A stretch of 64,000 nt of DNA from Falsiroseomonas frigidaquae (lineage in GTDB: Bacteria > Pseudomonadota > Alphaproteobacteria > Acetobacterales > Acetobacteraceae): NCBI RefSeq assembly GCF_012163145.1, contig NZ_JAAVTX010000002.1, forward strand, positions 868,001-932,000. Reading direction: 5' to 3'. This document shows positions 10,481 to 62,124 of the stretch, one piece after another (the stretch's first letter is position 1; each line of letters begins with the position of its first letter). Below the pieces are notes generated by a model. The model had not been told where the DNA came from, ran no database searches, and saw only the letters and a list, made by a program, of their open reading frames with translations. The position numbers and the translations under genes were made by a program.

Positions 10481-11316
10481 AGCCGCGCCGGGTTGTCCAC
10501 CAGGATCGCCCGCCGCTGCGCAGCATCCGGTGCCCAGTCGGCCAGCAGGTCGAGCAGCGCGGAATCGTCCGGGATGGTGGTGGCGTTGGGATGTGGCCAG
10601 TTGGTACCCCAGACCATCCGCTCCGGCGCCGCCGCCGCCAATGCACGCGCAAGCGGCGCCACCGCCTGCGGCCGCGCCTGGTCCAGGCTATAGGGGGAGG
10701 ACAGCTTCACCCAGCCACGCCCGGCCTGCACCAGGTCCATCACCACGCCCCAGGCCGGATGCGCCGCCCAATCCACCAGCGGCAGCTGCGCGAAATGGTC
10801 GAACACCACCGGGCAGGGCGCGGCGCGCAGCACCGGCGCGAGTTCGGCGATCTGACCGGCGCTGGCGAAAACCTGCATGTGCCAGCCGAGATCCGCCATG
10901 CGCCGGGCCAGCGGCGCGACATCCGCCAGCCCCAGGGGGATGCCCTGCACCAGGTTGGCCCGCGCGCCGACCACGCCGGCCGCCGCCATTTCCCGCGCCG
11001 CCGCAGGCTCGAAATCGGGCCGCACAACCGCCACCATGCGGGCGCGGTCCGGGCCGGCCTCGCGCAGCGCCGCCAGATGCAGGCTGTTGTCCAGGCCATA
11101 GCTGGAAGGCTGCACCAGCACCTGCCGCTGCACGCCGAGCCGCGCCAGCAGCCTGGCATGGTCTTCCAGCGTGGCGCTGCCATGTTCACGGCCACCCGGC
11201 ACCACCGGCGCCGCCACGTCGTAGACATGGTGGTGGCAATCCACCGCGCCGGGCGGCACCGCCAGACGCGGCGGGGCCGTGGCTGCGGTAAAGAGAATTT
11301 TCTCGGCATGATCCAT
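10465..11316 (-). CDS. Amidohydrolase-2 family (TIM-barrel) hydrolase
   Basis: A 283-residue member of the amidohydrolase-related family (PF04909 type). The metal-binding start is GAVDCHHHVYD (HxH). Later come VVFDHFAQLP with a conserved Asp-His, and the C-terminal WGTNWPHPNA, the family's Asp/Asn-Trp-Pro-His motif. Members include decarboxylases and lactonases acting on dicarboxylic or aromatic acids. The substrate here is unknown. The divergent neighbour is a D-2-hydroxyacid dehydrogenase 83 bases away, which suggests shared regulation of a small catabolic unit. Start is at MDHAEKILF. Confidence 0.85.
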   Translation of the reverse strand: MDHAEKILFTAATAPPRLAVPPGAVDCHHHVYDVAAPVVPGGREHGSATLEDHARLLARLGVQRQVLVQPSSYGLDNSLHLAALREAGPDRARMVAVVRPDFEPAAAREMAAAGVVGARANLVQGIPLGLADVAPLARRMADLGWHMQVFASAGQIAELAPVLRAAPCPVVFDHFAQLPLVDWAAHPAWGVVMDLVQAGRGWVKLSSPYSLDQARPQAVAPLARALAAAAPERMVWGTNWPHPNATTIPDDSALLDLLADWAPDAAQRRAILVDNPARLYGFA

Positions 11317-11399
11317 GCCGCATAGGCTACAGCCACAAGACCGGACGCCGGAAGTCTTGGCGGGCCCGAAGTCTTGGCTGAACGGAGGAACGGAACATC

Positions 11400-12410
11400 G
11401 TGCTGCGGGTATTCCTGACGCATACGCCGGAAATGCGCGGCGGCTACTACGCCGACGCCCCCTTGGCCGCGCTCCGCCAGGTGGCGGAGGTGACGCTGCA
11501 CACCGGCGACACGCCGCTGTCCGGCGCCGCCCTGGCACGTGCCGCCGCCGGCTGCCACTGCATCGTGGCGGACCGCGCCACCGCCGGCACCGCGGAGACA
11601 TTTGCCAATGCGCCGGACCTGCTGGCCTTCCTGCGGGTGGCGGTGGACATCTCCACCATCGATGTCCCCGCCGCCTCCGTCGCCGGGGTGCTGGTGACGC
11701 AGGCAACGCCGGGCTTCGTGGACAGCGTCGCGGAACTCGCCATCGGCATGATGATTGACCTGGCGCGCGGGGTTTCGCCGCTGGCCGGCGCCTATCACCA
11801 GGGCCATCCGCCCGGGTCCCGCATGGGCACGCAACTGTCCGAGAAGACGCTGGGCGTCATCGGCTGGGGCCGCATCGCGCGGCGGCTGGCAGCGCTGGCG
11901 CTGGCCTTCCGGATGCGGGTGCTGGTGCACGACCCCTACAACCCGCCCGGGGCGACGGAGGGCGTGCAGGCCGTGCCGCTGCAGCAGCTTCTGGCCGAGG
12001 CGGATTTCCTGGTCCCCCTGGCCGTCTCCACGCCGGAAACCCGCCATATCGTCGGCCCCGCCGCCTTCGCCGCGCTGAAGGACGGCGCCTTCCTGGTGAA
12101 CCTGTCGCGCGGCGAATTGGTGGATGAGGCGGCGCTGGCCGCCGCGCTGGATGGCGGGCGCCTGCGCGGCGCCGCCATGGATGTCGGCAGCGCACCGGAC
12201 CAGCGGCCGGACCCGGCGCTGGCCGCGCGGCCCAATGTGGTGGCCACCCCGCATATCGGCGGGCTGACGCCGGAGGCCGCGGAGCACCAGGCGATGGACA
12301 CGGTCCGCCAGGTGGCCGCCATTGCCGCCGGCCGTATGCCGGATGGCGCCGTCAACGCCGAGACCGCGCAGCGCCTGCGCGGCTGGTGGCAGGCGCGGGT
12401 TGCCCGATGA
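11400..12410 (+). CDS. D-isomer specific 2-hydroxyacid dehydrogenase family protein
   Basis: A 336-residue NAD(P)-dependent oxidoreductase. The catalytic-domain start is LRVFLTHTPEMR. The Rossmann nucleotide site is TLGVIGWGRIARRLAALA (GxGxxxR variant). The catalytic Arg lies in VNLSRGELVDEAAL, and the His lies in VATPHIGGLT. The usual Asp/Glu of the second motif falls in AMDVGSAPDQ. The family reduces 2-keto acids or phosphoglycerate-like substrates, and which one is not evident. The GTG start is preceded by GGAGG. It is divergent from the amidohydrolase. Confidence 0.9.
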   Translation: MLRVFLTHTPEMRGGYYADAPLAALRQVAEVTLHTGDTPLSGAALARAAAGCHCIVADRATAGTAETFANAPDLLAFLRVAVDISTIDVPAASVAGVLVTQATPGFVDSVAELAIGMMIDLARGVSPLAGAYHQGHPPGSRMGTQLSEKTLGVIGWGRIARRLAALALAFRMRVLVHDPYNPPGATEGVQAVPLQQLLAEADFLVPLAVSTPETRHIVGPAAFAALKDGAFLVNLSRGELVDEAALAAALDGGRLRGAAMDVGSAPDQRPDPALAARPNVVATPHIGGLTPEAAEHQAMDTVRQVAAIAAGRMPDGAVNAETAQRLRGWWQARVAR

Positions 12411-12430
12411 GGTTGGGGCGATGTGGTTGG

Positions 12431-12480
12431 GCCGGTGTGGGTGGGCCGGTGTGGTTAGGCCGGTGTGGTTAGGCCGGTGA
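12431..12480. repeat. 14-bp tandem repeat between the dehydrogenase and acyltransferase genes
   Basis: Units of GCCGGTGTGGTTAG at 12445-12458 and 12459-12472 are identical. Degenerate copies flank them at 12431-12444 and from 12473, and a similar partial unit precedes 12431. The array fills most of the 86-base gap before the next gene and ends 17 bases before its start. Confidence 0.75.
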
Positions 12481-12496
12481 GGTCGAGAGCAGCACC

Positions 12497-13264
12497 GTGA
12501 AGCCGCGGCGCCTGCGACTTCCGCCCGGGCGGCAGATGATCGCGGATCTGTCCTGGGCGTCGCTGCGCGTGCCGCGCTGCACGCTGACGGCGCGGCTCGC
12601 CATCCCACGCGCCCTGGCGGCGCGGGCGGCGCTGCCGGCGCCGCGGCCACCCTGGACCATCCTGTTCACCAAGGCCTTCGCCCTGGCGGCGGAGAGCCAG
12701 CCGGCGCTGCGCCGCCTGCACGCGACCCTGCCCCGCCCGGTGCTGCTGGAGGCTCCGCACGCCATCGGCTGCATCGTGCTGGAGCGCGAGCATGAAGGGC
12801 AGGCGACGCTTGCCCTGGCGCGCTTCACCGAACCGCATGCCACGCCCCTGGCGCGGCTGGCGGCGCAGCTGCACCACGCCAAGACGGCGCCGCCCACGGA
12901 ATGGCGCCACTTCCACCGCCTGCTGCGCTTCGCCCGCCTGCCCTGGCCGCTGCGCCGGCTGATGCTGCGCTGGGCGCTGGCCAGCGGCACGCCGCTGCTG
13001 CGCTATGGTGGCACCTTCGCCGTTTCCTCGCTCGGCAGCCGCCAGGCGGCGATCGTGGACAGCGTCAGCGTGCTGCCCTGCTTCCTGTCCTACGGTCCGA
13101 TCGGCGCCGATGGCGGGGTGGAGGTGTTCCTGTCTTTCGACCATCGCGTGATGGACGGCGCCGATGGCGCCGCGGCGCTGGAGGGGCTGGAGCTGGCGAT
13201 GGAATCGCTGGTGGCGGCGGAGCTGGCCGGCATGGCGATCCCGGCCCTCACCCCGGCGGAATGA
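12497..13264 (+). CDS. Stand-alone 2-oxoacid dehydrogenase E2-type acyltransferase-fold protein
   Basis: A 255-residue protein resembling only the catalytic (chloramphenicol-acetyltransferase fold) domain of E2 subunits. Near the C-terminus it has LSFDHRVMDGADGAAALEGLE, the HxxxDG active-site motif, preceded by GTFAVSSLGS, matching the family's strand before the active site. There is no lipoyl domain and no E1/E3-binding segment, so it is not a normal dehydrogenase component. The N-terminus (RQMIADLSWASLRVP) is Arg-rich. The gene begins just after the 14-bp repeat array and overlaps the convergent MFS gene by 17 bases. Substrate is unknown. Confidence 0.75.
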   Translation: MKPRRLRLPPGRQMIADLSWASLRVPRCTLTARLAIPRALAARAALPAPRPPWTILFTKAFALAAESQPALRRLHATLPRPVLLEAPHAIGCIVLEREHEGQATLALARFTEPHATPLARLAAQLHHAKTAPPTEWRHFHRLLRFARLPWPLRRLMLRWALASGTPLLRYGGTFAVSSLGSRQAAIVDSVSVLPCFLSYGPIGADGGVEVFLSFDHRVMDGADGAAALEGLELAMESLVAAELAGMAIPALTPAE

Positions 13265-14384
13265 GCGCGGCGCGGATCCAAATCGCCATCGCCACCACCC
13301 CGCATGCTGCCAGCAGGAAGGCCACGGTGAAGCCGGCGGCGACGATGATGCCGCCGAACACCACCGACCCCAGGCTCTGCCCCAGGAACAGCGCCATGGC
13401 GAAGGCGGCCACCGCGGTGCCGCGGGCTTCCGGCAGCGCCTCCGTCGCGCGCGCCTGCAGCACGCCGTGCAGCATGAAGAACAGCAGCCCCACCGCGCAT
13501 TGCGCCACCGCCACCATCCACCAGGCCGTGGCCAGGGCGAAGACGCACAGAGCCACGGCGATGCCGATGCCACCCCACAGCACCAGCCGCCGCTCCCCCA
13601 GCCAGCGCAGCAGCCGCGCGGCGTTCTGGGTGTAGAGGAGCGAGCCAAGCCCGAAGCTGGCCGCCACCGCCCCGGCGCCGGCCGCCGACAATTCGAAGCG
13701 CTCGATCAGCAGGGACGCCAGGAAGGGGAAGGCGCCGCCGAACAGCAGGAAGCCGTTGGTGGCGGCCGCCAGCAGCAGCCGCCGCCCCGGCTTGCGTTCC
13801 AGGATGCGCAGGAAGCCGGACAGCCCGATGGTGCGGCCCGCCCCCTCCGGCGCGCGCCACAGCGCCGGGCCGAGGCGCAGCGCGAAGAACACCGTCATCC
13901 CCGCCGTCATCACGCCCAGCGCGAGGAAGGCGCTGCGCCAGCCGGCATATTCGGCCACCGCGCCGGAAAGCGGCGCGGCCAGAAGCTGCGACACCACCAT
14001 GCCGGTCAGCAGCTGGCCGATCATCGCCTGGCGGTGCTCATAGGCCACCTGGTCGCCGATATGCGCCATCAGCAGGGGGATCACGGCCGCACAGGCAAAG
14101 CCACCCAGCACCCGCACCGTCAGCAGCGTGCCAAGTTCCCCGGCGAAGGCGGCGGCGACCTGGGTGCCGGCATACAGCGCCATGGAGACAGCCACGATCG
14201 GCATCTTGCCGAAGCGGTCGCCGAGCGGCCCCATGACCAGCTGGCCGACCCCATAGGCCAGCGCGAAGCCGCCGATCAGCGGCGCCACCGCGCCGAGGCC
14301 GACGTTGAATTCGCGTGCCAGCATGGGCAGCAGCGGGTCCAGCATCCGCATGCCGCAGCCGATGGTGAAGGCGGCCAGCGCCAT
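13248..14384 (-). CDS. Major facilitator superfamily transporter
   Basis: A 12-helix MFS permease. Motif A between helices 2 and 3 is GQLVMGPLGDRFGKMP, and the second-half equivalent reads more weakly. The shortest start is the ATG at 14384, but the frame is open upstream to the rlmN stop and helix 1 appears to begin before it (PPIWLMALAAFTIG). The real start may therefore be a non-ATG codon 20-odd residues upstream. Orientation and spacing suggest co-transcription after rlmN. The substrate is unknown, and drug or sugar efflux are the usual guesses for this subgroup. Confidence 0.85.
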   Translation of the reverse strand: MALAAFTIGCGMRMLDPLLPMLAREFNVGLGAVAPLIGGFALAYGVGQLVMGPLGDRFGKMPIVAVSMALYAGTQVAAAFAGELGTLLTVRVLGGFACAAVIPLLMAHIGDQVAYEHRQAMIGQLLTGMVVSQLLAAPLSGAVAEYAGWRSAFLALGVMTAGMTVFFALRLGPALWRAPEGAGRTIGLSGFLRILERKPGRRLLLAAATNGFLLFGGAFPFLASLLIERFELSAAGAGAVAASFGLGSLLYTQNAARLLRWLGERRLVLWGGIGIAVALCVFALATAWWMVAVAQCAVGLLFFMLHGVLQARATEALPEARGTAVAAFAMALFLGQSLGSVVFGGIIVAAGFTVAFLLAACGVVAMAIWIRAALIPPG

Positions 14385-52066: not shown

Positions 52067-52430
52067 CCAATCGCCCGGGGGGTGGCGTGGCCGAAGGTCG
52101 CGCTGCGTGATTGCAGGGGGACGCTGTTCCCCTGCACCCCCTGCCAGGGGCCTCGGGCCCCTGGACCGCGAGGACTTTAAGCGAAGAAGCGGAGGGGGCC
52201 GGATGAACCGCTGAACAAGCGGTCGCCCAGGCCCCCTCCGCTTCTCCACTTATGATTCATGGGTTCAAAGGGCCAAAGCCCTTTGCGGGGTCACGGCACT
52301 GCCGTGACGGAGGGAGGGCAGCGCCCTCCCTGCAAATCACGGGCGCAACCCACCCCACCCCAGCCTCCCCGGCGATGGACAACCGCCGCGGGGCTGCGTC
52401 AGTCTGGCGGAGCGGGTGCAGGGGGTTCGG
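52067..52430. repeat. 364-bp intergenic region made of nested perfect inverted repeats
   Basis: No gene is seen here. Going left to right, hairpins are GCAGGGG/CCCCTGC (52113-52135), CCAGGGGCC-TCG-GGCCCCTGG (52144-52164), AGAAGCGGAGGGGGCC with its exact complement (52185-52200 and 52230-52245) enclosing ACCGCT/AGCGGT (52207-52223), TCACGGCA/TGCCGTGA (52291-52307) and AGGGAGGGC-AGC-GCCCTCCCT (52311-52331). The last two lie inside a TTTGC/GCAAA pair. The many GGCCCCTGG-type stems resemble dispersed repeat elements seen in Acetobacteraceae intergenic DNA. Confidence 0.8.
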
Positions 52431-53915
52431 ATGGCGGCGTTTGATCTGGTGGTTCGGGGTGGCACGGTGGCCACGGCGGCCGAGGTGTTCGAGGCGGATA
52501 TCGGTGTTGTCGATGGCAAGGTGGCGGCCATCGGTCGCAATCTTGCGGCGGGGCGGGAGGAGGTCTCGGCCAAGGGCATGGTGGTGACGCCGGGCGGCTT
52601 GGATCCGCATTGCCATCTGGAGGAGCTGGCGCAGGACGGCTCGGTGCATGAGGAGAGTTTCGCCAGTGGCTCGGCGGCCGCCTTGGCGGGCGGCACCACG
52701 TCGTTCATCTGTTTCCTGCCGCAGTGGAAGGGGCATTCCCTGGCGGACAGCGCGCCGGGGTATGAGGCGCGGGCGGCGAAGTCGCGTTGCGATTACTCCT
52801 TCCACCAGATCATCACCGATCCGACGCCGGAGGTGCTGGAGCGGGAGATTCCGGCGCTGATCGCGCGCGGCGTGCGCAGCCTGAAGGTGTTCCTCACCTA
52901 TGATCCGCTGCGGCTGGATGATGCGCAGCTGATCCAGGTGCTGGCGATGGCGCGGCGGCACCGGGCTTTCGTCACCATCCATGCGGAGAATTACGATGCG
53001 ATCGGCTGGCGCATCGACGCGCTGCTGAAGGCCGGGCTGACGGATCCCTTGCAGCATGCCTGGTCCCGCCCGCCGGTGGTGGAGCGGGAGGCGACGCATC
53101 GGGCGATCGCGCTGGCGGAGCTGGTGGACCAGCCGGTGCAGATCTTCCACGTGAGTTGCGAGGAGGCGGCAGAGGAAATCGCGCGCGCCCGGGCGCGCGG
53201 CGTGAAGGTGTGGGGCGAGACCTGCCCGCAATACCTGACCCTGTCGCACGACGATCTGCAGGGGCCGGATTTCGCCGGCGCCAAGGCGGTGTGTTCGCCG
53301 GCGCTGCGGGCGAAGGGCGAGAACGAGAAGGTCTGGCGGCGCATCCTGGATGGCACGCTGGATGTGGTCTCCTCCGACCATTGCGGCTTTTCCTTCGCCA
53401 CGGCGAAGCGCGCGCCGGGCAGTGGCGGCTATGGCATGGGCAGTGCCAATCTGCGCGCCGATGGCACGCCCGCCTTCAACGCGATACCCAATGGCGTGCC
53501 GGGCATCGAGACGCGGCTGCCGGTGCTGTTCTCCGAAGGCGTATCGAAGGGCCGCATCGACCTGCCGCATTTCGTTCGCCTGAGTTCTGCCAACGCGGCG
53601 AAGCTGTTCGGGCTGGAGGGGCGCAAGGGCAGCCTGATGCCCGGTGCCGATGCAGACTTGGTGCTGTGGGACCCGGATGCGGAGCGCACCATCCGCAACG
53701 CGGACCTGCACCACGCCATCGACTACACGCCGTGGGAGGGTTTCGCGGTGCGCGGCTTGCCCAGCGTCACCATCGCCGGCGGCCGCGTGGCGGTGCGGGA
53801 CGGGCAGGTGCTGGCGCAGCCGGGCGATGGCCGCTTCCTGGCGCGCGGCCCCTATGCGATGGCGCGGCCCAGCGGGCACGTGCCGGATGGTTTCGACGCC
53901 GCCGCGGTCGAGTAG
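52431..53915 (+). CDS. Dihydropyrimidinase/hydantoinase-family amidohydrolase
   Basis: A 494-residue cyclic amidohydrolase. The metal site begins with VVTPGGLDPHCHLEE (HxH). The carboxylated lysine is Lys152 in VRSLKVFLTYD. Later His ligands are in FVTIHAENYDA and FHVSCEEAAEEI, and the catalytic Asp lies in VVSSDHCGFS. The substrate could be dihydropyrimidine, hydantoin or a related cyclic amide. The ATG at 52431 has GGGGG five bases upstream, favouring it over a GTG at 52416. A hairpin covers its stop codon. Confidence 0.88.
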   Translation: MAAFDLVVRGGTVATAAEVFEADIGVVDGKVAAIGRNLAAGREEVSAKGMVVTPGGLDPHCHLEELAQDGSVHEESFASGSAAALAGGTTSFICFLPQWKGHSLADSAPGYEARAAKSRCDYSFHQIITDPTPEVLEREIPALIARGVRSLKVFLTYDPLRLDDAQLIQVLAMARRHRAFVTIHAENYDAIGWRIDALLKAGLTDPLQHAWSRPPVVEREATHRAIALAELVDQPVQIFHVSCEEAAEEIARARARGVKVWGETCPQYLTLSHDDLQGPDFAGAKAVCSPALRAKGENEKVWRRILDGTLDVVSSDHCGFSFATAKRAPGSGGYGMGSANLRADGTPAFNAIPNGVPGIETRLPVLFSEGVSKGRIDLPHFVRLSSANAAKLFGLEGRKGSLMPGADADLVLWDPDAERTIRNADLHHAIDYTPWEGFAVRGLPSVTIAGGRVAVRDGQVLAQPGDGRFLARGPYAMARPSGHVPDGFDAAAVE

Positions 53916-54034: not shown

Positions 54035-54937
54035 GTGGCGATCGAGCTGAATGCGCGGGCGGAGCCTGCGCCAATCCCGCCTTCCGGCCGCTTCCGCGCG
54101 GGTGCCGCTCCGGGCGCGCTGCTCGGCGCGCGTGATGCGGTAGCGGGACTGCTGCTGGGCGCTTCACTGACCGCCTGCGGGCTGGTGCTGCTATGGCCTT
54201 CCGCGCTGAGCTCCGCCGGCTCGTCCTCGCCGCCCGTGGTGCTGGCGGTGGAGGATCGGGCGGCCGCGCTGGACGCCCTGCTCCGCCAGGCCAATGCCCA
54301 GCTTTCCGCGCACGCCGCGCGGGCCGAGGAGGCGGCACGGCAGGCGGAAGCCGCGGCACAGCGCCTGGCGCTTCTGGAGGCGCGTGGGCCGACCGCGGAC
54401 CGCTTCCTCGCGGCGGCCTTGCTGTTGCAATCCAGCGTCGCGACGCCGCGGCCCTGGCTGCGCGAATACCAAATGATGATGGCCCTCGCCCCGCCCGGCG
54501 CCGTGCCGCGCCCGCTGGCCGAGGTGCTGGCCAGCCATGCCGCGCGCGGCCTGCCGAGCGGGATGGAACTGCGGGACCGCTTCGCGATGCTGGCGCCGCA
54601 ACTGCTGGACCGTGCGCCGCAGGAGGATTCGCTGGTGCAGCGCGCCGGGCTTGCCGCGCGCGGCGTGCTGTCCGGCATCGGCCTGGCGGCACCGCCGCAG
54701 GCCGGGCTTCAGGCCGCCGCGGTGGCCGGCATTGCCGCGCAGCTTCGCCGGGGTGACCTGGCCGGGGCGGTGGCCGATGCCGGCGCGCTGGATCCCACCC
54801 TGCAACCGCTGCTGGCCGGCTGGCTGGCGCAGGCGCGGGCGCGCATGGCGGTGGAGCAGGCGGTGCGGGAAACGCTGCTGCTCGCGCTTGCCCCGCGCCC
54901 ACGGCCGGAGCTGGCCGCGGCCACGCTGCGGAATTGA
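54035..54937 (+). CDS. Mitofilin-like single-pass membrane coiled-coil protein
   Basis: A 300-residue protein: a cytoplasmic N-terminus, one transmembrane helix (residues ~36-55, AVAGLLLGASLTACGLVLLW), a coiled coil (DALLRQANAQLSAHAARAEEAARQAEAAAQRLALLEARG), and a C-terminal helical domain ending RRGDLAGAVADAGALDPTLQPLLAGWLAQARARMAVEQAV. That C-terminal pattern (GDLxGA...W...AxARxxxE) is the signature I associate with alphaproteobacterial mitofilin/Mic60 relatives. The match is by eye and moderate. The GTG start is the first plausible one after the upstream stop. It lies at the head of the unknown envelope cluster. Confidence 0.5.
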   Translation: MAIELNARAEPAPIPPSGRFRAGAAPGALLGARDAVAGLLLGASLTACGLVLLWPSALSSAGSSSPPVVLAVEDRAAALDALLRQANAQLSAHAARAEEAARQAEAAAQRLALLEARGPTADRFLAAALLLQSSVATPRPWLREYQMMMALAPPGAVPRPLAEVLASHAARGLPSGMELRDRFAMLAPQLLDRAPQEDSLVQRAGLAARGVLSGIGLAAPPQAGLQAAAVAGIAAQLRRGDLAGAVADAGALDPTLQPLLAGWLAQARARMAVEQAVRETLLLALAPRPRPELAAATLRN

Positions 54938-54993
54938 AATCACGCCGCCCCCGCGGTGCCTGCTTCACGCCTGACTGACCCGGGAGTCCCAAC

Positions 54994-56061
54994 ATGGGCC
55001 GCCTCCGCAATCTCCTGATGGGCTTAGCCCTGGCCACCTGCACCGCAGCCACCGCAGCGCCGCCCGCCGCGGCGCAGGGCGTCATGCGCGACCGGCTGGT
55101 GATCATTTCCTCCACCTCCGCCGGCACCGTCGCCCGCATGCTGGCTGCCAGCTTCACCGAGCGCTTCGAGGGGGTGATGGAGCCGACGCGGCGCACCTTG
55201 CCGACCTCCGGCGTGCTGGACCTGTTCTGCGCCGGCGTCGGCCCACAGACCCCCGACATCGCCGTGGTGGTGCGCCGCATGCCGCGCAGCATGGTGGAGA
55301 CCTGCGACACCAATGGCGTGCGCAACATCGTCGAGATGCGGATCGGGCTGAGCGCCGTGCTGCTGGCGGTGCGGCGTGGCGAGGGCACCACCAACCTCAC
55401 CTCCCGCCAGGTGTGGGAAGCGCTGGCGGCGGAGCGCATCGTGGATGAGGAATTCGTGCCGAACCGCCGCGCGCTGTGGTCCGAGGTCTCCCCGGCGCTG
55501 CCGCGCATCGAGATCCGCGTGCTGGCGCCCAATCTCGGCACCGGCACCAACGGGCTGTTCGAGGACATGATCCTGGAAGGCGGCTGCCGCGACGTGCGCG
55601 CGATCCGCCTGCTGTTCGAGGCCCAGTACCGCCGCGGCAAATGCGTGACGGTGCGGGAAGATGGCCGGGTGCAGCGGATGGGCGGGCTGGAGGTGCCGGC
55701 GGCGCTGCTGGCCAGCCCGCCGGGCACCGTCGGCGTCATCTCCTACGACCAGCTGCAGGCCAGCGGCGGCAACCTGGTGGCGCTGACGCTGGATGGCGTG
55801 CTGCCGACCCAGGGCTCGATCTACGCGCAGGACTATGTCGCGACGCGCATCGTCTATGTCTACGCCAAGCGGCAGCACACGCGGCTGCGCGAAGGCGTCG
55901 GCGTGGTGCGCGGCATCCGCGAATTCCTGAACGAGGCGACCAGCGAGGCGGCGTCCGGCCCTGGTGGCTACCTCTCCGTCACCGGCCTGGTGCCGCTGCC
56001 GCCGGCGGATCGCGCCGCGCAGCGCCGCACCGCCGACCGCATGACCCTGCTGTCCCGATGA
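54994..56061 (+). CDS. PstS-like periplasmic phosphate/anion-binding protein
   Basis: A 355-residue exported protein with a signal peptide (LRNLLMGLALATCTAATAAPPAAAQG, residues 4-29). Then comes RDRLVIISSTSAGTVARMLAASFTERF, the start of a type II periplasmic binding fold, as in PstS-family proteins. Further segments fit this fold (GLSAVLLAVRRGEGTTNLTSRQVWEAL, VGVISYDQLQASGGNLVALTLDGVLPTQGSIYAQDYVATRIVYVYAKRQH). No ABC permease or ATPase gene is nearby, so it may serve another role than uptake. It overlaps the next gene by ATGA. Confidence 0.75.
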   Translation: MGRLRNLLMGLALATCTAATAAPPAAAQGVMRDRLVIISSTSAGTVARMLAASFTERFEGVMEPTRRTLPTSGVLDLFCAGVGPQTPDIAVVVRRMPRSMVETCDTNGVRNIVEMRIGLSAVLLAVRRGEGTTNLTSRQVWEALAAERIVDEEFVPNRRALWSEVSPALPRIEIRVLAPNLGTGTNGLFEDMILEGGCRDVRAIRLLFEAQYRRGKCVTVREDGRVQRMGGLEVPAALLASPPGTVGVISYDQLQASGGNLVALTLDGVLPTQGSIYAQDYVATRIVYVYAKRQHTRLREGVGVVRGIREFLNEATSEAASGPGGYLSVTGLVPLPPADRAAQRRTADRMTLLSR

Positions 56062-56840
56062 ACCCGGCGCCGGAGACCCAACCCATGCCGCGCATCCAGC
56101 CCACCCGCCGTGCCGTCCGCCTCGCCAACTGGCTGCTTGCGGGAAGCCTGGCGCTGCCGCTGCTGGCCGGGGATGTGGCGCTGGCGCAGCCGGTGCCGCC
56201 ATCGCCGCAGTCCTCGCCGCGCACCATGGTGACGGTGCCCCTGCAGGATCTGTCGGAGGACGGCCTGGTGGACCGGGCGGGGGAGCTGTGGGGCAACGTG
56301 CTCGACATCTTCGGCTTCAGCACCGGCGCCAGCCACTTCATGCGCCGCCACGGCGCGCTGCGCCGCAACCGCGCACAGAATGACGACTTCACCTGGCTGA
56401 TGGACATCGCCGGCTACAAGCTGAAGGAGATCGAAAGCTCCATCGGCCTGATCCCGAGCTTCGGCCTCGCCTTCGGCCAGGCGCGGGAGCTGACGGAGGC
56501 GGATCGCGACTATGTCGAGCGGATGCTGGACCGCCACGCGCAGCGCAACCCGGGCCCGATGGCGGTGATCCAGCGCACGATCGTGCGCGGCATCCTGGAC
56601 GCGACGGAAATCGGCGGCTTCACGGTGGACAAGGTGGATGTGGATCTGTTCCCGCTGCCGCGCGTGAAGTTCGTGCTGACGCCGACGGATGCGCCGCTGG
56701 GCATCGAGGCGAGCCGCATCCTTCGGGCGATCGACCGGCTGAATGCGCGGGTGCAGGGCATGGCGACGCGGCCGCAGGGCATGGACCTGCCGCTGGAGCC
56801 GACGGCGCCCTCGCTGCGTCCGGCGACACTGGCACATTGA
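56058..56840 (+). CDS. Secreted protein of unknown function (envelope cluster)
   Basis: A 260-residue protein with a signal peptide (LANWLLAGSLALPLLAGDVALAQ at about residues 18-40). The mature domain contains GELWGNVLDIFGFSTGASHFMRRHGALRRNRAQNDDFTWLMDIAGYKLKEIESSIGLIPSFGLAFGQ and a later DVDLFPLPRVKFVLTPTDAPLGIEASRILRAIDRL. I do not recognise the family. Its start overlaps the binding-protein stop by four bases, so the two are coupled. A second start at MPRIQP (56085) is possible. It likely acts in the periplasm or outer membrane. Confidence 0.7.
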   Translation: MNPAPETQPMPRIQPTRRAVRLANWLLAGSLALPLLAGDVALAQPVPPSPQSSPRTMVTVPLQDLSEDGLVDRAGELWGNVLDIFGFSTGASHFMRRHGALRRNRAQNDDFTWLMDIAGYKLKEIESSIGLIPSFGLAFGQARELTEADRDYVERMLDRHAQRNPGPMAVIQRTIVRGILDATEIGGFTVDKVDVDLFPLPRVKFVLTPTDAPLGIEASRILRAIDRLNARVQGMATRPQGMDLPLEPTAPSLRPATLAH

Positions 56841-56862
56841 ACGGCTGCGCAGGGGAATGGCG

Positions 56863-57297
56863 ATGAACGCTGGCGACCAGGATGGCCGCAGCCGCTTCGG
56901 CGAGTTGGTGAAGCTGCAGATGCAGGGCCGCCGCTTCCTCGACAGCAATGAGGAACGGCGCCTGCTGGAGGAAGGGCTGACGCGCTACGGGCTGCGGCTG
57001 GAAGATGCCAGCGGCATGCTGCGCGCGGCGGCGGAGCAGGATGAGATCGCGCTGGAAGGCGAGGTCGGCCGGTCCTCCGGCATGCTGCTGCGGACCATGG
57101 CGGACCGGCGCGGCCGGGTCGCGCGGCAGGATTTCAACAAGGCCGTCGCCTTCTATCGCGCCCGCACGGGCGCCGGGCTTTCGGAAGCGGAAGCCGCGCG
57201 CCGCGTGAAGCGGCGGATGGAGGAGCTGGAGCTGGCGCCGAAGCCGCATGGCAGGCTGATCCGCACCCGGCGCTGGTGGCGCGCCATCGATGGTTGA
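56863..57297 (+). CDS. Small protein consisting of the unnamed domain shared with the carbonic-anhydrase-like protein
   Basis: 144 residues. FGELVKLQMQGRRFLDSNEERRLLEEGLTRYGL and VARQDFNKAVAFYRARTGAGLSEAEAARRVKRRMEELELAPKPHGRLIRTRRWWR are closely matched by the C-terminal half of the carbonic-anhydrase-like protein at 61.2 kb (FADLVRLRLRDGPLAPETERALLAEGLTRYGL...). No signal peptide. The ATG at 56863 has AGGGG seven bases upstream. The domain is unnamed to me. It should have the same binding partner in both proteins. Confidence 0.7.
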   Translation: MNAGDQDGRSRFGELVKLQMQGRRFLDSNEERRLLEEGLTRYGLRLEDASGMLRAAAEQDEIALEGEVGRSSGMLLRTMADRRGRVARQDFNKAVAFYRARTGAGLSEAEAARRVKRRMEELELAPKPHGRLIRTRRWWRAIDG

Positions 57298-57325
57298 TTC
57301 TCAATTCCTGCTGAAGGGTACTCGC

Positions 57326-57628
57326 ATGAAGACGATCCTGGCGTTCCTGCTTCTGGCCGGCCTGGCGCTGTCGCCGCAGCATGCTGCGGCGCAGGCGACC
57401 ATCACCACGCCTGCCATTCCTGCCGTCACGCTGCCTTCCGTGAACATTCCGGCAGTGCCGGCGCAGCGCATCACCGCGGGCCATGCCATGGCGCTCGGCG
57501 TCGGACTGTTCGCCGGCGCGGTTGCCGGGTCCGTGCTGATCCATGGCGGCGCGCTGGCCGCGGCCATCGGCGGCGCGGCCGGGCTGGCGGTGGGGCATTG
57601 GGCCTGGACGGAAGCCGAATACGACTGA
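57326..57628 (+). CDS. Small exported glycine-zipper protein
   Basis: A 100-residue protein: signal peptide KTILAFLLLAGLALSPQHAAAQ, then a Thr/Pro/Val-rich spacer (ITTPAIPAVTLPSVNIPAVPAQ), then GVGLFAGAVAGSVLIHGGALAAAIGGAAGLAVGHWAW, a glycine-zipper transmembrane segment. Such segments oligomerise in membranes. The ATG at 57326 is chosen for the signal peptide and has AAGGG before it. An ATG at 57290 would overlap the previous gene. Function is unknown. Confidence 0.65.
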   Translation: MKTILAFLLLAGLALSPQHAAAQATITTPAIPAVTLPSVNIPAVPAQRITAGHAMALGVGLFAGAVAGSVLIHGGALAAAIGGAAGLAVGHWAWTEAEYD

Positions 57629-57679
57629 CCACGCCAGCGCTGCGTGACGTTGCCCCGAGGGGTGGCCCAGGAGGGGCAA

Positions 57680-58480
57680 TTGGAATTCTCGCTGCCACAT
57701 CACATCGCGGCCATGCCCGGCTGGCTTGCAATCATGCTGACGGCGGGCGTGCCGGTGCTGCTGGCGCTCGCCCTCGGCCACGCCATGCACCAGATCTTCA
57801 CGCCGCAGGAATTCGCCGCCAACGCGCAGATCGGCGCGGTGAAATACGGCTTCGTGGTGGAGATCTACGCGGTGGTCGCGGCGCTGGCGCTGGTCGGATC
57901 CTGGGACATCTACCAGACCGCGCGCGATACGGTGCAGCAGGAGACGTCCAACCTCTACATGTTGGCATTGGCGGTGGACAGTTTCGGCGGCGCGGACCTA
58001 GCCCCGGCGCGCGACGAGATGCGCACCGCCATCCGGCTTTATGCCGGTGCCGTGGTGGCGAATGACTGGCCGGTCATGCAGGCGGGCCAGCCCGGCACCG
58101 GGTCCGAGGCCGCCTTCCAGCGCCTGGCGCGCGCCTTCCTCGATGTCGAGGGACGCAGCGATGGTCAGCACGCGCTGAAGCAGAATGTCGGTGACTGGCT
58201 GGCGGCGGTGGCGAAGGCGCGGATCGAGCGGCTTTCGGTGATGTCCCGCACCCTGTCAGGACTGATCTGGGCGCTGGTGCTGACCGTCTCCGTCGCCACC
58301 ATCAGCTTCCAATGGTTCTTCGGCGGCGGCCATGTGGCGCTGCACTACACCATGGGCGCCATCATCGCGCTGATCGTCGGCGCGGTGCTGCTGGTGTCGC
58401 TGAAGCTGGCCTTCCCCTTCGTCGGCGACCCTGCGCTGCTGACGCCGCGGCCGTATCTGTCGCTGATGGAGGTGACGTGA
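57680..58480 (+). CDS. DUF4239 (bestrophin-like) membrane protein
   Basis: 266 residues. Two N-terminal helices (~12-31 and ~54-74), a soluble middle with DSFGGADLAPARDEMRTAIRLYAGAVVANDWPVMQ, and two C-terminal helices (~193-216 and ~225-247). The helix-2 region VKYGFVVEIYAVVAALALVGSWDIYQTARDTVQQETSNLYMLALAVDSFGG matches what I know as DUF4239, annotated as bestrophin-like. Bestrophins are anion/bicarbonate channels, so an ion role is an inference. The TTG at 57680 has a near-ideal AGGAGG five bases upstream, while a GTG at 57644 has none. In the cluster with the carbonic-anhydrase-like gene. Confidence 0.75.
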   Translation: MEFSLPHHIAAMPGWLAIMLTAGVPVLLALALGHAMHQIFTPQEFAANAQIGAVKYGFVVEIYAVVAALALVGSWDIYQTARDTVQQETSNLYMLALAVDSFGGADLAPARDEMRTAIRLYAGAVVANDWPVMQAGQPGTGSEAAFQRLARAFLDVEGRSDGQHALKQNVGDWLAAVAKARIERLSVMSRTLSGLIWALVLTVSVATISFQWFFGGGHVALHYTMGAIIALIVGAVLLVSLKLAFPFVGDPALLTPRPYLSLMEVT

Positions 58481-58488
58481 CGGTGCGA

Positions 58489-59091
58489 TCAATGCCCCCC
58501 GCCGCGCGGCGCGTGGCGCCAGCGCTGGAAGACGAACAGCACCAGCGCGAACAGCCAGAAATTCAGCAGCGCCAGCATCCAGGCCAGCAGGTGGATGGCG
58601 TAGTGCAGCACCAGCGCCGTGCTGGCGGCCAGCAGCAGGAAGGCGCCGAGCGCGCGCAGCCGAGCCCAGCCGCGCCACCAGCGCAGCGCGGCCAGCGGGC
58701 CGGTCGCCAGCAGCAGCAGCGCCAGCCCGCCGGGCAGTGCGCCGAGGCCACCCTGGCGCAGCAGGTCGCGCGCATTCTGCAGCGTCGCCGTGCCGGGCAG
58801 GCCGTGCTGCAGCAGGAAGCCTGGCAGATCCAGGCTCCACGGTCCCTGCACGACGAAGATGCTGGACAGGCGGAAGCTCTCGCCATGCGGTACGGCCAGC
58901 AGCAGCGTGACGCCGCTGGCGATGCCGGCGCACAGCGCCAGCACGTGCAGCAGTGGCACAGCCTCGGCATCCGCGGGCGCCAATGCGGCGTAGGCGACGC
59001 TCGCGGCGCGCAGCAGCGCCAGCACCAGCAGGATGGCGAGCGCAGCTTCCGCCCCGCCCCACAGGATCATCCCGATGCCACCATGTTCCAT
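58489..59091 (-). CDS. Polytopic membrane protein antisense in the envelope cluster
   Basis: A 200-residue, strongly hydrophobic protein with about five transmembrane segments (WGGAEAALAILLVLALLRAA, LLHVLALCAGIASGVTLLLAVP, ALPGGLALLLLATGPLAAL, ALGAFLLLAASTALVLHYAIHLLAWMLALLNFWLFALVLFVF). No family recognised. It is the only minus-strand gene in the 54-62 kb cluster, and its start (59091, or an internal ATG at 59070) overlaps the start of the next plus-strand gene. The forward-strand frame across it is low-complexity and unlike a protein, so this strand is the coding one. Confidence 0.65.
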   Translation of the reverse strand: MEHGGIGMILWGGAEAALAILLVLALLRAASVAYAALAPADAEAVPLLHVLALCAGIASGVTLLLAVPHGESFRLSSIFVVQGPWSLDLPGFLLQHGLPGTATLQNARDLLRQGGLGALPGGLALLLLATGPLAALRWWRGWARLRALGAFLLLAASTALVLHYAIHLLAWMLALLNFWLFALVLFVFQRWRHAPRGGGH

Positions 59092-60150
59092 GCGCGGAAG
59101 CTAGGGCGCGCGGCCGGGGCAAGTAAGGGGTTTCGTGCCGCGGTTGCGCTGGCCCTGCTAATTTTCGCGCAGCCAGCCCTGGCGGCACCGATGGCAGTGC
59201 GCAACCCGGATGGAAGCTGCGGCCTGCGCGACGTGCCGGAGGCGGCCTTGCAGGCCTGGGATTCGCATCTGGCGGCGGAGGCGGCGCGGCTGGAAGGTAT
59301 GGCGCATCGCCTGCTGGCGGATGCCGCCGCCATGCGCCTGGCCCCGGCGCGGGAGGCGGTGCCCGGCTTCGGCGACTGGGCCTATGGCTGGGTGCAGAGC
59401 TACATGACCGCTTATCGGGTGCTCGGCCTGGCGGCGCGCAACCTGGCGGAAGGCGTGGCGGAGGCGGATGCTTCCAGCCTGCCGGACCGCATCGCGCAGG
59501 GCATGGCCACCCCGGTGCGGGAGGCCTTCCGCACCCGCGTGCTGGAACCCGCCATCCCGCCCGCGGCGCTGGCGCTGGACCGCGCGCATGTGCGGGACGT
59601 GATCGTTGCGGAATGGCAGCTGGCGGTGACGGAGGTGGCGCGGCAGGCGCAGGCGCTGCCGCGCGTTTCGCTGATCGCCCCCGGCGCCGTCGCGGTGCCG
59701 CGGGTCGACCTGCTGGCCGCCGCGCGACCCCTGGCGGATTGGCAGGCGGTGGAGGCCGACCCAATGGCGCTGGTCGTGGAGGAAGGTGCCGAGACCAGCA
59801 CGGTGTTCCTGCGTTCCATGCGGCCGATGGCGGCGCGGCTCGGCGCCGTGGCGCTGCGGGTCAGCGAGGCCGGGTCGATCGTCGCCACCAGCGGCGCCTT
59901 CGGCTACGCGCTGGGCGGCACGCCGGGCGTGGCGCTGGGTGTGGCGGGCGGCGTCGGCCTGTCCTGGGGCCTGGACTACGTGCTGAACCGCGTCGATTCC
60001 GCGCTGAACCGGGAGGCCTTCGAGGCGCAGGCGCTGGAAGCCATCGAACGTGCCGAACAGCGCCTGCCGGCGCAGGGGCGCCTGGCCGTGGCGGCGGCAC
60101 TGGCAGCAAGACGCGGCGAATTGCGCGCCGAAAATCCGGGATGCGGCTGA
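59083..60150 (+). CDS. Large secreted helical protein with C-terminal glycine-zipper segment (unknown)
   Basis: 355 residues: a signal peptide (FRAAVALALLIFAQPALAA, about residues 18-36) after a basic n-region, a mature helical part (RDVPEAALQAWDSHLAAEAARLEGMAHRLLADAAAMRL), and a Gly-rich hydrophobic stretch GSIVATSGAFGYALGGTPGVALGVAGGVGLSWGLDYVLNRVDSALNREAFE near the end. I do not recognise the family. It may oligomerise in a membrane through the zipper. The start at 59083 overlaps the divergent gene's start. No good ribosome-binding site is seen. Confidence 0.65.
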   Translation: MFHARKLGRAAGASKGFRAAVALALLIFAQPALAAPMAVRNPDGSCGLRDVPEAALQAWDSHLAAEAARLEGMAHRLLADAAAMRLAPAREAVPGFGDWAYGWVQSYMTAYRVLGLAARNLAEGVAEADASSLPDRIAQGMATPVREAFRTRVLEPAIPPAALALDRAHVRDVIVAEWQLAVTEVARQAQALPRVSLIAPGAVAVPRVDLLAAARPLADWQAVEADPMALVVEEGAETSTVFLRSMRPMAARLGAVALRVSEAGSIVATSGAFGYALGGTPGVALGVAGGVGLSWGLDYVLNRVDSALNREAFEAQALEAIERAEQRLPAQGRLAVAAALAARRGELRAENPGCG

Positions 60151-60806
60151 TGCGATACCTGATTCCACTGCTGCTGCTGCTGCTGGCCACGCCGCTGCAG
60201 GCGCAGCCCGCCCTGCTGGCGCTGGCGGGGGCGGAACTGCTGCTGCCGCATCTGGCGCGGTCCGCGCCCTTTCCGCGTGCCTTGGCGGTGACGCAGGCGC
60301 TGACCGCAGGTGAGGCTGATTGGCAGGCCTTGCTGGCGCCGCTCGATGCCGTGGCGGAACAGGGTGCGCCGCTGCCGCGCCAGCTGGCGGCCAGCTTCCC
60401 CGTCGCCGCGCGCGCCGCGGTGCTGGCCGAGATGGGCCACCCGGCGGAGGCTGGGCGGCTGTGGCACTGGATGGCCGGCGCCATGCGGCTCGGCGCCCGT
60501 TTCGGCGGCGGCGAAAGCCCGGCATTGGCCGCCACCGAGGCGGCGGAGGTGCTGCTGGGCCGCGGAGAGCTGCGCGCCGCGGACCAGGCGCTGGCGACGC
60601 TCGTCGGCCCGGCGGCGGCGGCGCTGCTGACCTGGCGGCAGGGTTTGGCCCGCCGGCTGCTGATGGAGGATGCTGCCACTGCGCTTGCCGCGCTGGCCAC
60701 GGCGCGCGCGGCGCCGGGGCACACCGCCGCCCGCACGGCCCCCGCGCGCACGGTCCCCGCACCCACGGTCCCCGCACCCACGGCCCGGGCGGCCAGGGCG
60801 CCATGA
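60150..60806 (+). CDS. Secreted helical protein (unknown)
   Basis: A 218-residue protein: signal peptide MRYLIPLLLLLLATPLQAQ, then mostly Ala/Leu-rich helices with TPR-like spacing (EMGHPAEAGRLWHWMAGAMRLG, LGRGELRAADQALATLVGPAAAALLTWRQG). The C-terminal 20 or so residues come from a 15-bp repeat (PARTVPAPTVPAPTA). The ATG at 60150 forms TGATG with the previous stop; an earlier ATG at 60141 is possible. The next gene overlaps its stop by ATGA. Confidence 0.65.
   Translation: MRYLIPLLLLLLATPLQAQPALLALAGAELLLPHLARSAPFPRALAVTQALTAGEADWQALLAPLDAVAEQGAPLPRQLAASFPVAARAAVLAEMGHPAEAGRLWHWMAGAMRLGARFGGGESPALAATEAAEVLLGRGELRAADQALATLVGPAAAALLTWRQGLARRLLMEDAATALAALATARAAPGHTAARTAPARTVPAPTVPAPTARAARAP
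60733..60777. repeat. 15-bp x 3 in-frame repeat at a gene 3' end
   Basis: GCACGGCCCCCGCGC (60733-60747), GCACGGTCCCCGCAC (60748-60762) and CCACGGTCCCCGCAC (60763-60777). They encode the Pro/Thr-rich tail of the secreted helical protein, with degenerate copies before and after. Confidence 0.75.
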
Positions 60807-61219
60807 GCGCGGCGCGCTTCAACTGGCAGGGCGTGGTGGCGCGCGGGTTGTTCAGCCTGTTCGTGGTCTTCGCGATCTACAACCCTTCCGGCTATTCCTA
60901 CCTGCACTGGGTGCTGCAGGGCTTCGCGTGGTTCTGGGCCAAGCTCGCCATCGGCGCCTTGCTCGCGATGATCGTTCTGATGCTGTGGCGCACCACGCGC
61001 GGCGTGCTGAAGCCGCGCGGCATGGTGCTGGTGGCGCTGTTCTGCCTCGGCGGCGGCGTGACACTGGCGAGGCTGACCGACACCTCCATCCTGCATCCCG
61101 GCTCGCTGCTGATCGGCGCGCTGCTGACCCTGGCGGCGCTGTTCACCGCCGGCCTGTCCTATTCCCATGTCGATCATCGCCTGGGCGGCATCAGCCATAC
61201 GGAGGAAGTGGCCAAGTGA
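60803..61219 (+). CDS. Small polytopic membrane protein (DUF6524-like)
   Basis: 138 residues, four transmembrane helices. The first part, FNWQGVVARGLFSLFVVFAIYNPSGYSYLHWVLQG, has an NPSGYSYxHW motif I recall from the small membrane family DUF6524. Helices 2-4 follow (AKLAIGALLAMIVLMLW, VLVALFCLGGGVTLA, SLLIGALLTLAALFTAGLSYSHVDHR). Family assignment is from memory and moderate. It is coupled by 4-base overlaps to both the secreted protein gene and the carbonic-anhydrase-like gene. Confidence 0.6.
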   Translation: MSAARFNWQGVVARGLFSLFVVFAIYNPSGYSYLHWVLQGFAWFWAKLAIGALLAMIVLMLWRTTRGVLKPRGMVLVALFCLGGGVTLARLTDTSILHPGSLLIGALLTLAALFTAGLSYSHVDHRLGGISHTEEVAK

Positions 61220-62124
61220 CCCCGGTACCGAGCAAGGCGGATGCCTTCGTGGTGAGCTGCATCGACCCGCGGCTGGTCGATGACGTGACCTGGCTGATGG
61301 ATTCCGTGGGCCGCACCGACCGCTATTCCGAATTCCGCATCGCCGGCGCCGCGCTCGCCGTGGTGGACCCGGCGCGGCCTGCCTGGGGCCAGGCGCTGTG
61401 GGAGAATCTGGCAGCCTCCCGCCAACTGCACGGCGTGCGCAAGGTGGTGTTCGTGAACCACCGCGATTGCGGCGCCATGGACCTGTTCGCCGGCCGCCGC
61501 CTGTCGCTGGATCGCGCCGATGAGCTGGCCCAGCACCAGGCGGTGCTGGACCGGGCCGCCGCCGGCGTGCTGTCCCGCCACCCGGACATGCAGGTGGAGC
61601 TGCGGCTGATGGAGCTGGATGGCCGCTCCACCCTGCTGCCCTGCGCCGCCTGCGCGGCCGGTGCCCCGCAGGCGGGCGCCCTGCGGGCGGAGGCGGTGAC
61701 CCCGCCCGGCTTCGCCGACCTCGTCCGGCTGCGCCTGCGCGACGGCCCGCTGGCGCCGGAGACGGAACGCGCCCTGCTGGCGGAGGGCCTGACCCGCTAC
61801 GGCCTGACCGCGCGGGAAGCCCGCGCCGCGCTGGCCGCCGCCGCCGCCGCGCGTGGCGAGCCGACCGGCACCGCCGCGACGCGGGAGGTGCTGGCCTATC
61901 TCCGCAGCCGGGCCGATGCCGGCAGCCGCGTCGCCCGCACCGATGTGGCGCGCGGCGTTGCGCTGTACCGGCGACTATCCCCCGGCCTGCCCCCGGCCGA
62001 GGCCGAGCGCCGCACCGCCGTGCTGATGGAGGGCGCCGGGATGGCGCCGCGGCCGGATGGGCTGCTGCGCTCCACGCGCTGGTTCAATCGGATGGCCGCT
62101 CCCCCCGCGCCGCGCCCGGCGTAA
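61216..62124 (+). CDS. Beta-carbonic-anhydrase-like protein fused to the unnamed cluster domain
   Basis: 302 residues. N-terminal domain (residues ~10-140) keeps the beta-carbonic anhydrase zinc motifs: CxDxR as SCIDPRL (Cys15, Asp17, Arg19) and HxxC as NHRDCGAM (His82, Cys85). A spaced segment YSEFRIAGAALAV mirrors the family VRNAGN region. C-terminal domain (~165-292, FADLVRLRLRDGPLAPETERALLAEGLTRYGL...RSTRWFNR) is closely related to the whole 144-residue protein at 56.9 kb. No signal peptide, so cytoplasmic. The GTG overlaps the DUF6524-like stop. Activity as an anhydrase is untested, but all metal ligands are present. Confidence 0.8.
   Translation: MTPVPSKADAFVVSCIDPRLVDDVTWLMDSVGRTDRYSEFRIAGAALAVVDPARPAWGQALWENLAASRQLHGVRKVVFVNHRDCGAMDLFAGRRLSLDRADELAQHQAVLDRAAAGVLSRHPDMQVELRLMELDGRSTLLPCAACAAGAPQAGALRAEAVTPPGFADLVRLRLRDGPLAPETERALLAEGLTRYGLTAREARAALAAAAAARGEPTGTAATREVLAYLRSRADAGSRVARTDVARGVALYRRLSPGLPPAEAERRTAVLMEGAGMAPRPDGLLRSTRWFNRMAAPPAPRPA

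Follow-up and report, generated by a model that had tools for sequence, protein, structure and literature searches.

A conserved cluster of envelope-protein genes with a DUF4239 membrane protein and a carbonic-anhydrase-like enzyme in Falsiroseomonas frigidaquae and its relatives

The genes of the cluster

The window considered here is a stretch of 64,000 nucleotides from Falsiroseomonas frigidaquae (contig NZ_JAAVTX010000002.1, positions 868,001 to 932,000). At positions 54035-62124 of this window lies a cluster of eleven genes, A to K. The plus strand carries A-F and H-K, and G lies between these two groups on the minus strand. A first-pass annotation of the same DNA placed the cluster at 54994-62124 and described it as a run of tightly spaced genes, many with four-base overlaps. 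The genes within these limits are as described, but A also belongs to the cluster, and G had been missed. There are indeed three four-base overlaps (B/C, I/J, and J/K), but since G is found on the minus strand the genes do not make up one run; they fall into two plus-strand groups with the reversed G in between. The starts of H and G overlap by nine bases on opposite strands. When compared to one relative (L086; L and G numbers denote the stretches and genomes used), all 11 genes have a ratio of non-synonymous to synonymous substitutions (dN/dS) of 0.25-0.49, the value for G being 0.25.

Transmembrane helices were predicted using simple hydropathy, and the export-type N-termini of B, C, E, H, and I were judged by eye. 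A (54035-54937) is predicted to be membrane-anchored by one N-terminal helix and to carry a mitofilin-like C-terminal domain. B (54994-56061) is a putative exported, PstS-like periplasmic binding protein (PF12849, PBP_like_2, E 6.5e-17), and C (56058-56840), which overlaps it, is a probably exported protein with no family over cut-off in either Pfam or NCBIfam. D (56863-57297) is a soluble domain protein of 144 residues lacking predicted helices, while E (57326-57628, with an alternative start at 57290) is small, probably exported, and contains a glycine-rich hydrophobic hairpin. F (57680-58480) most likely starts with the TTG at 57680 and encodes a DUF4239/bestrophin-like membrane protein with four predicted helices (PF14023, E 2.6e-33, 116 bits; curated cut-off 32 bits). 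G (58489-59091) encodes a membrane protein with five predicted helices. H (59083-60150) seems to be exported and has a glycine-rich C-terminal stretch; it has no Pfam match, and a profile search of PDB returned nothing convincing. I (60141-60806), also probably exported and not present in all loci, is a distant paralogue of the A domain, as judged from a weak cross-match between the two profiles. J (60803-61219) is a DUF6524 membrane protein with at least three predicted helices (PF20134, E 1.3e-26, 93.3 bits; cut-off 27 bits). K (61216-62124) has neither a signal peptide nor predicted helices, and consists of a β-carbonic-anhydrase-like domain, a CxxC motif, and a C-terminal domain that is the same as D (hhalign 99.7%, E 4e-25). 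Its match to Pro_CA_2 is weak (E 1.7e-4, 22.3 bits; cut-off 30 bits). The families earlier assigned to B and F are borne out.

For seven of the 11 proteins (A, C, D, E, G, H, and I) no Pfam family scores over its cut-off, K has only its sub-cut-off match, and none of B-K exceeds a cut-off in NCBIfam. Searching PDB with the D profile gave nothing convincing, and a match of the C profile to a ribosome hibernation factor (E 0.009) was judged to be due to chance. A role in anti-phage defence was considered and rejected, as none of the ten proteins B-K matches in PADLOC. Upstream, a hydantoinase-type amidohydrolase gene (52416-53915) adjoins the cluster, as it does in the close relatives L033 and L084-L086. 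At the other end K overlaps a convergent AraC-type gene by 41 bases (62084-62124).

Conservation of the gene set

When 200 genomes of the family were searched with K, 26 matched, including the genome of the window itself. Among 20 stretches taken from 17 of the other 25 genomes, five contained the cluster, K being truncated at the end of a contig in one of them; fourteen stretches (L039-L052) contained short carbonic-anhydrase-like genes without the cluster. A profile of C matched 27 of 396 genomes of the order, representing nine of 84 genera, all in a single family, and five of these genomes are of a diverged sister type. The same profile identified 36 loci in a named genome collection, whose genomes are partly those of the order search. 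The order A-B-C-D-F-H-J-K is kept in 28 of these 36, hereafter the complete loci. This agrees with the first-pass suggestion that the genes form an envelope system. The remaining C loci comprise five that are truncated at the ends of contigs, two from Stella that hold A-B-C, and the rearranged L146. Within the complete loci H is always present (28/28), E is found in 14, and I immediately precedes J in 15. Of the 28, 25 have G in the reverse orientation, and searches of the other three (L120, L133, and L134) did not reveal it. A presence matrix was made for 23 of the complete loci, and as L111, L114, L120, L133, and L134 were left out, its G column is fuller than that of the whole set. Given that all genes have a dN/dS of 0.25-0.49 and that their order recurs in many genomes, it is near certain that they form a real gene set beyond what chance would produce.

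The D profile matched only the genome of the window and, weakly, one other among 339 genomes of the phylum (2/339). Of 385 genomes of the class, 28 were matched by the K profile, and a full K was seen only in the window's own genome and in G1141, where it is cut by a contig end. The idea of a plasmid-borne cassette was discarded, since the 12 plasmid records matched by K are all from Azospirillum and none covers 80% of K. DUF6524 neighborhoods from one other alphaproteobacterial family (L164-L167, L170, and L171) and from L169 contained no further cluster gene detectable by the profiles. By the searches made the gene set is undescribed in the literature: no description of the cluster was found, DUF6524 was not mentioned in the literature searched, and among the matches listed for the Pfam accessions all looked like name clashes.

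The cluster has a frequent companion, M, a protein of about 130 residues that is encoded within the fetched stretch in 17 of the 28 complete loci. A set of 46 genomes was used to compare carriers of the main-type cluster with hand-picked genomes lacking it. The M profile matched 18 of the 22 carriers vs. 0 of the 24 others (Fisher p 2.6e-9, not corrected for kinship, so that the species are not independent). The carriers without a match are G195, G300, G033, and G419, and the copy in G293 holds a stop. Within the genus of the window M was found in 6/7 carriers and 0/5 others. The M of the window's own genome has 127 residues and is encoded at C12:858745-859098 (L220:8731-9111), about 63 kb from the cluster and outside the window. 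Weaker M-like proteins are found in L250 and L252. In three genomes (G215:C44, G285:C218, and G324:C45) the genes for M and MlaA are at most about 2 kb apart, on a contig away from the cluster.

Diverged sister clusters were found in L103-L106, L108-L110, and L250-L253. They contain relatives of D, G, and J, except that L109 is without J and L110 is truncated ahead of any D, and variously relatives of A, B, C, H, and I. In the Stella-like L252, D, G, H, I, and J are accompanied by an A-like protein, M, and a TPR protein. Within the stretches read, neither the sister clusters nor L252 contain K, and F is found only in L250. The K profile gave only a D-type match in the genome of L252, a genome in which F was looked for in the stretch and not genome-wide. 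The sister clusters and L252 keep much of the rest without K, and F and K are best regarded as a pair added to a wider set of envelope genes.

Links to mitofilin and Mla proteins

The A protein of the window is connected by profiles to that of L146 (hhalign 99.05%, E 2.1e-18), and the latter passes the cut-off of Mitofilin (PF09731). Seven candidates from related clusters were scanned with this model; besides the L146 protein, L252:11595-12506, which is I-like, and L253:12732-14063 were over the cut-off.

Genes of the Mla type also recur around the set. MlaA was found in the fetched stretch, that is, up to 10 kb to either side of C, in nine of the 28 complete loci, and by the Pfam model it lies beside the main cluster in eight of the 22 carriers, these being partly the same loci. 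Among the sister clusters MlaA is found in L103, and L108 encodes a fusion of an ABC ATPase with a permease of the MlaE type (11295-12791). Further fusions of this kind are encoded at L109:6046-7653, L146:10822-12321, and L168:5270-6790, the last being about 2 kb from a DUF6524 gene in a genome of another class. At E < 1e-90 the fusion was found in 6/46 genomes, in each case near a sister cluster; these are six of the seven genomes that carry a locus of the sister type. In L146 one such fusion is combined with F, G, H, I, J, K, MlaA, M, a ParA-like gene, A, B, and C. The Pfam MCE domain was found neither in B-K of the window nor in five proteins encoded next to the fusions (L103, L108, L109, L168, and L250).

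Because of the recurrent MlaA linkage, the MlaE-type permeases, and the mitofilin-domain proteins, membrane contact or lipid traffic is the best guess as to the function of the set. We therefore propose, with a probability of roughly 0.37, that the genes encode a so far undescribed alphaproteobacterial envelope complex serving such a function, to which F and K would be an added anion/CO2 module. The kept gene order, the tracking of the cluster by M, and a fusion of a B-like with a C-like protein in one open frame in L103 (13085-14629), which suggests that B and C act together, also speak for this proposal. The inner-membrane part of the complex would consist of the anchor A, and I where present, with their mitofilin-like domain in the periplasm, and of the membrane proteins G, J, and F. 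On the periplasmic side, towards the outer membrane, B, C, H, and E would be at work, and the soluble D domain would be located on the cytoplasmic face. Such a complex could hold or serve contact sites between the inner and the outer membrane, and might move or monitor an envelope component, most likely a phospholipid or a phosphate-bearing head group. In the lineage of the window K would be a cytosolic enzyme docked through its own copy of the D domain, and it might link the complex with CO2/HCO3- or with a related anion conducted by F. What we infer from these relationships is that the proteins form a complex, that it has a role in lipid handling, that D serves for docking, that K is catalytic, and that F conducts.

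Several observations weigh against this proposal. In the window, the cluster lacks a transporter, an ATPase, an MCE domain, and MlaA. MlaA is not found in the stretch read in 19 of the 28 complete loci, and it is present in 46/46 genomes anyway. An ABC-MlaE fusion acting as a hidden, unlinked partner in main-type genomes was considered and rejected, as none of the 22 has a match at E < 1e-90; this includes G293, which contains the sister-type L104 in addition to a main cluster. The A protein of the window has itself no Pfam match, and only three of the seven mitofilin-type candidates pass the cut-off, L250 just missing it and L109 being weak. The L253 protein over the cut-off (12732-14063) is not labelled A or I by the profiles, and Mitofilin is not matched by two A-like proteins, L252:12972-14567 and L253:11250-12056. 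Finally, the RND and HlyD proteins of the sister clusters (see below) would fit with the export of something else.

Compared to known systems, the set resembles Mla (MlaA, MlaBCDEF) in that related clusters contain, or lie next to, MlaA and the fusion of an ABC ATPase with an MlaE-type permease. However, the cluster in the window has neither of these, the five proteins encoded next to the fusions lack an MCE match, and none of B, C, D, G, H, and J belongs to the Mla proteins. A similar comparison can be made to Mic60 of the mitochondrial contact site and cristae organizing system (MICOS). A is linked by profiles to a protein matching PF09731, and other related clusters also encode such proteins, but A is short, has no Pfam match of its own, and is found in a different gene set. 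Mic60 acts in intracytoplasmic membranes of alphaproteobacteria (PMC12136173). In its most specific form the proposal would be that of a mitofilin-centred contact machine, a free-living counterpart of MICOS, which is set by cytosolic CO2/HCO3- via the D-docked enzyme and its anion channel-like partner, and which would represent an entirely novel type of envelope system. We consider this more detailed version to be improbable. Among the matches listed in the literature for mitofilin together with MlaA, the sole item containing both words concerns mitochondria.

The F-K pair and other possible functions

The motifs Cys-x-Asp-x-Arg and His-x-x-Cys form the zinc site that defines β-carbonic anhydrases. 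The first-pass annotation stated that K keeps both, and this holds well beyond the window: of the 17 K proteins aligned, all have Cys-x-Asp-x-Arg and 16 have His-x-x-Cys, the Cys of the latter being present in all 17. In K of the window the residues are C15, D17, R19, H82, and C85, with the CxxC formed by C143 and C146. In the deviating protein (L089:14431-15333) the zinc-ligand His is a Tyr, which may reflect loss of activity or a sequence error. Pro_CA_2 is matched by 16 of the 17 K proteins at E ≤ 0.01. An hhalign comparison of K to the three β-carbonic anhydrases of its own genome placed the motif residues on the known ligands, though with a probability of 3.8%, and the only β-carbonic anhydrase match of the K profile in PDB was weak (E 0.099). 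K is thus like the β-carbonic anhydrases (Pro_CA, PF00484; Pro_CA_2, PF20393) in its zinc-ligand and Asp/Arg motifs, and unlike them in falling below the family cut-off in the window, in the extra CxxC, and in the fused D domain.

F adjoins K wherever K is found, i.e., in 28/28 complete loci as well as in L146 and L254. The family also contains short paralogues resembling the anhydrase domain, and these have CIDPR and HR[DE]CG in 18/18 rows (17 distinct). Since 11 of the 18 called sequences (10 of the 17 distinct) carry a twin-arginine motif, many of them are probably exported, and one exported member reaches 32.0 bits against Pro_CA_2, where the cut-off is 30. They adjoin the cluster in L227 (6987-7451), in L090 (6498-7064) and L119, which is the same locus sampled twice, and in L131. 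In L041 and L044 short genes of this kind lie beside amidohydrolase genes. A second membrane-protein family found near the cluster looks DUF4239-like by eye (L227:4849-5655, L118:16672-17481, L136:6688-7500, L145:16655-17464, and L120:8976-9815).

These observations are the basis for the most serious alternative, a bicarbonate/CO2 unit in which F would conduct HCO3-, K would interconvert CO2 and HCO3- on the inside, and the exported short paralogues would do so on the outside. The conserved zinc ligands, the constant pairing of F with K, and the short paralogues next to some clusters all point this way. A bestrophin-like protein is also paired with a carbonic anhydrase in the algal mechanism for concentrating CO2. 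RuBisCO matches over 200 bits are absent from all 22 carriers, which disfavors a CO2-concentrating role, though such matches are uncommon in the other genomes too (4/24, with a fifth being split). Matches of about 57 bits in G033 and G419, over the cut-off of 30.1 bits, are taken to represent RuBisCO-like proteins. A link to phototrophy was likewise dismissed, as reaction-centre genes are found in 14/22 carriers vs. 11/24 others (p 0.25). Ordinary β-carbonic anhydrases are present in 44/46 genomes, the carrier G095 having none. In addition, K is under the Pro_CA_2 cut-off and barely aligns with the anhydrases of its own genome, the sister clusters do without it, and most of the partners of F and K are envelope proteins, unlike in the algal system. 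The earlier proposal that the locus handles bicarbonate or a related anion therefore survives as regards the zinc motifs and the F-K pair, but not as the core role of the set, and we regard a dedicated bicarbonate/CO2 unit as unlikely.

A rather doubtful alternative is that the set takes part in trans-envelope export or efflux of a metal, a toxic compound, or a polymer, in which case the RND and HlyD proteins of the sister clusters would be the engine and the remaining proteins accessories. The sister clusters add an RND pump, an HlyD protein, and DUF2061-like proteins. RND matches are found inside six of them, L105, L106, L108, L110, L251, and L253 (ACR_tran at 726 bits in L105), and HlyD in L103 and L105. 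The pumps speak for an export role, but the 28 complete main-type loci, which retain nearly all of the other genes, show no RND match in the stretches read.

Little probability is also assigned to a system for sensing or taking up phosphate or another nutrient, built around B and a second binding protein of the amino-acid type that is encoded beside some loci. By sequence the solved structure nearest to the B profile is the SAR11 phosphate-binding protein CpPstS (9JWY, E 2.4e-45). CpPstS has seven phosphate contacts and is reported to have an enlarged cavity, which might accommodate larger phosphorus compounds (PMC12421899). B of the window has four of the seven contacts identical, two are Ser/Thr swaps, and Ser83 is replaced by Val. 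When 26 B proteins were compared, no contact was the same in all of them, Gly174 being present in 24. As the first-pass annotation had pointed out, B is without an ABC partner: Pfam scanning of the window's cluster genes revealed neither a permease nor an ATPase. B differs from CpPstS both in its partly lost contacts and in the lack of Pst transporter genes. Members of the second group of binding proteins, which we take to be AapJ-like, were found in 9 of 38 clustered stretches, and in both Stella loci they follow directly after C.

That the genes form no functional unit and have been kept together by recent descent alone is very improbable: all main-type carriers of the order search belong to one family, but the order of the block is constant while the flanking genes change, identities to the window proteins go down to 43% (C) and 49% (K) among the relatives, and M tracks the cluster even when unlinked.

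A complex for membrane contact or lipid traffic thus remains the preferred reading of a set that has been kept in order across many genera though most of its proteins have no Pfam family over cut-off. As far as the literature was searched, DUF6524, DUF4239, and the carbonic-anhydrase-like enzyme share no context in print. Mitochondria are thought to have originated from alphaproteobacteria, and in free-living members of this class the wider set connects lipid-transport genes of the Mla type with proteins of the mitofilin type. The F-K pair makes it a directly testable question whether CO2 or anion status is an input into the upkeep of the envelope.

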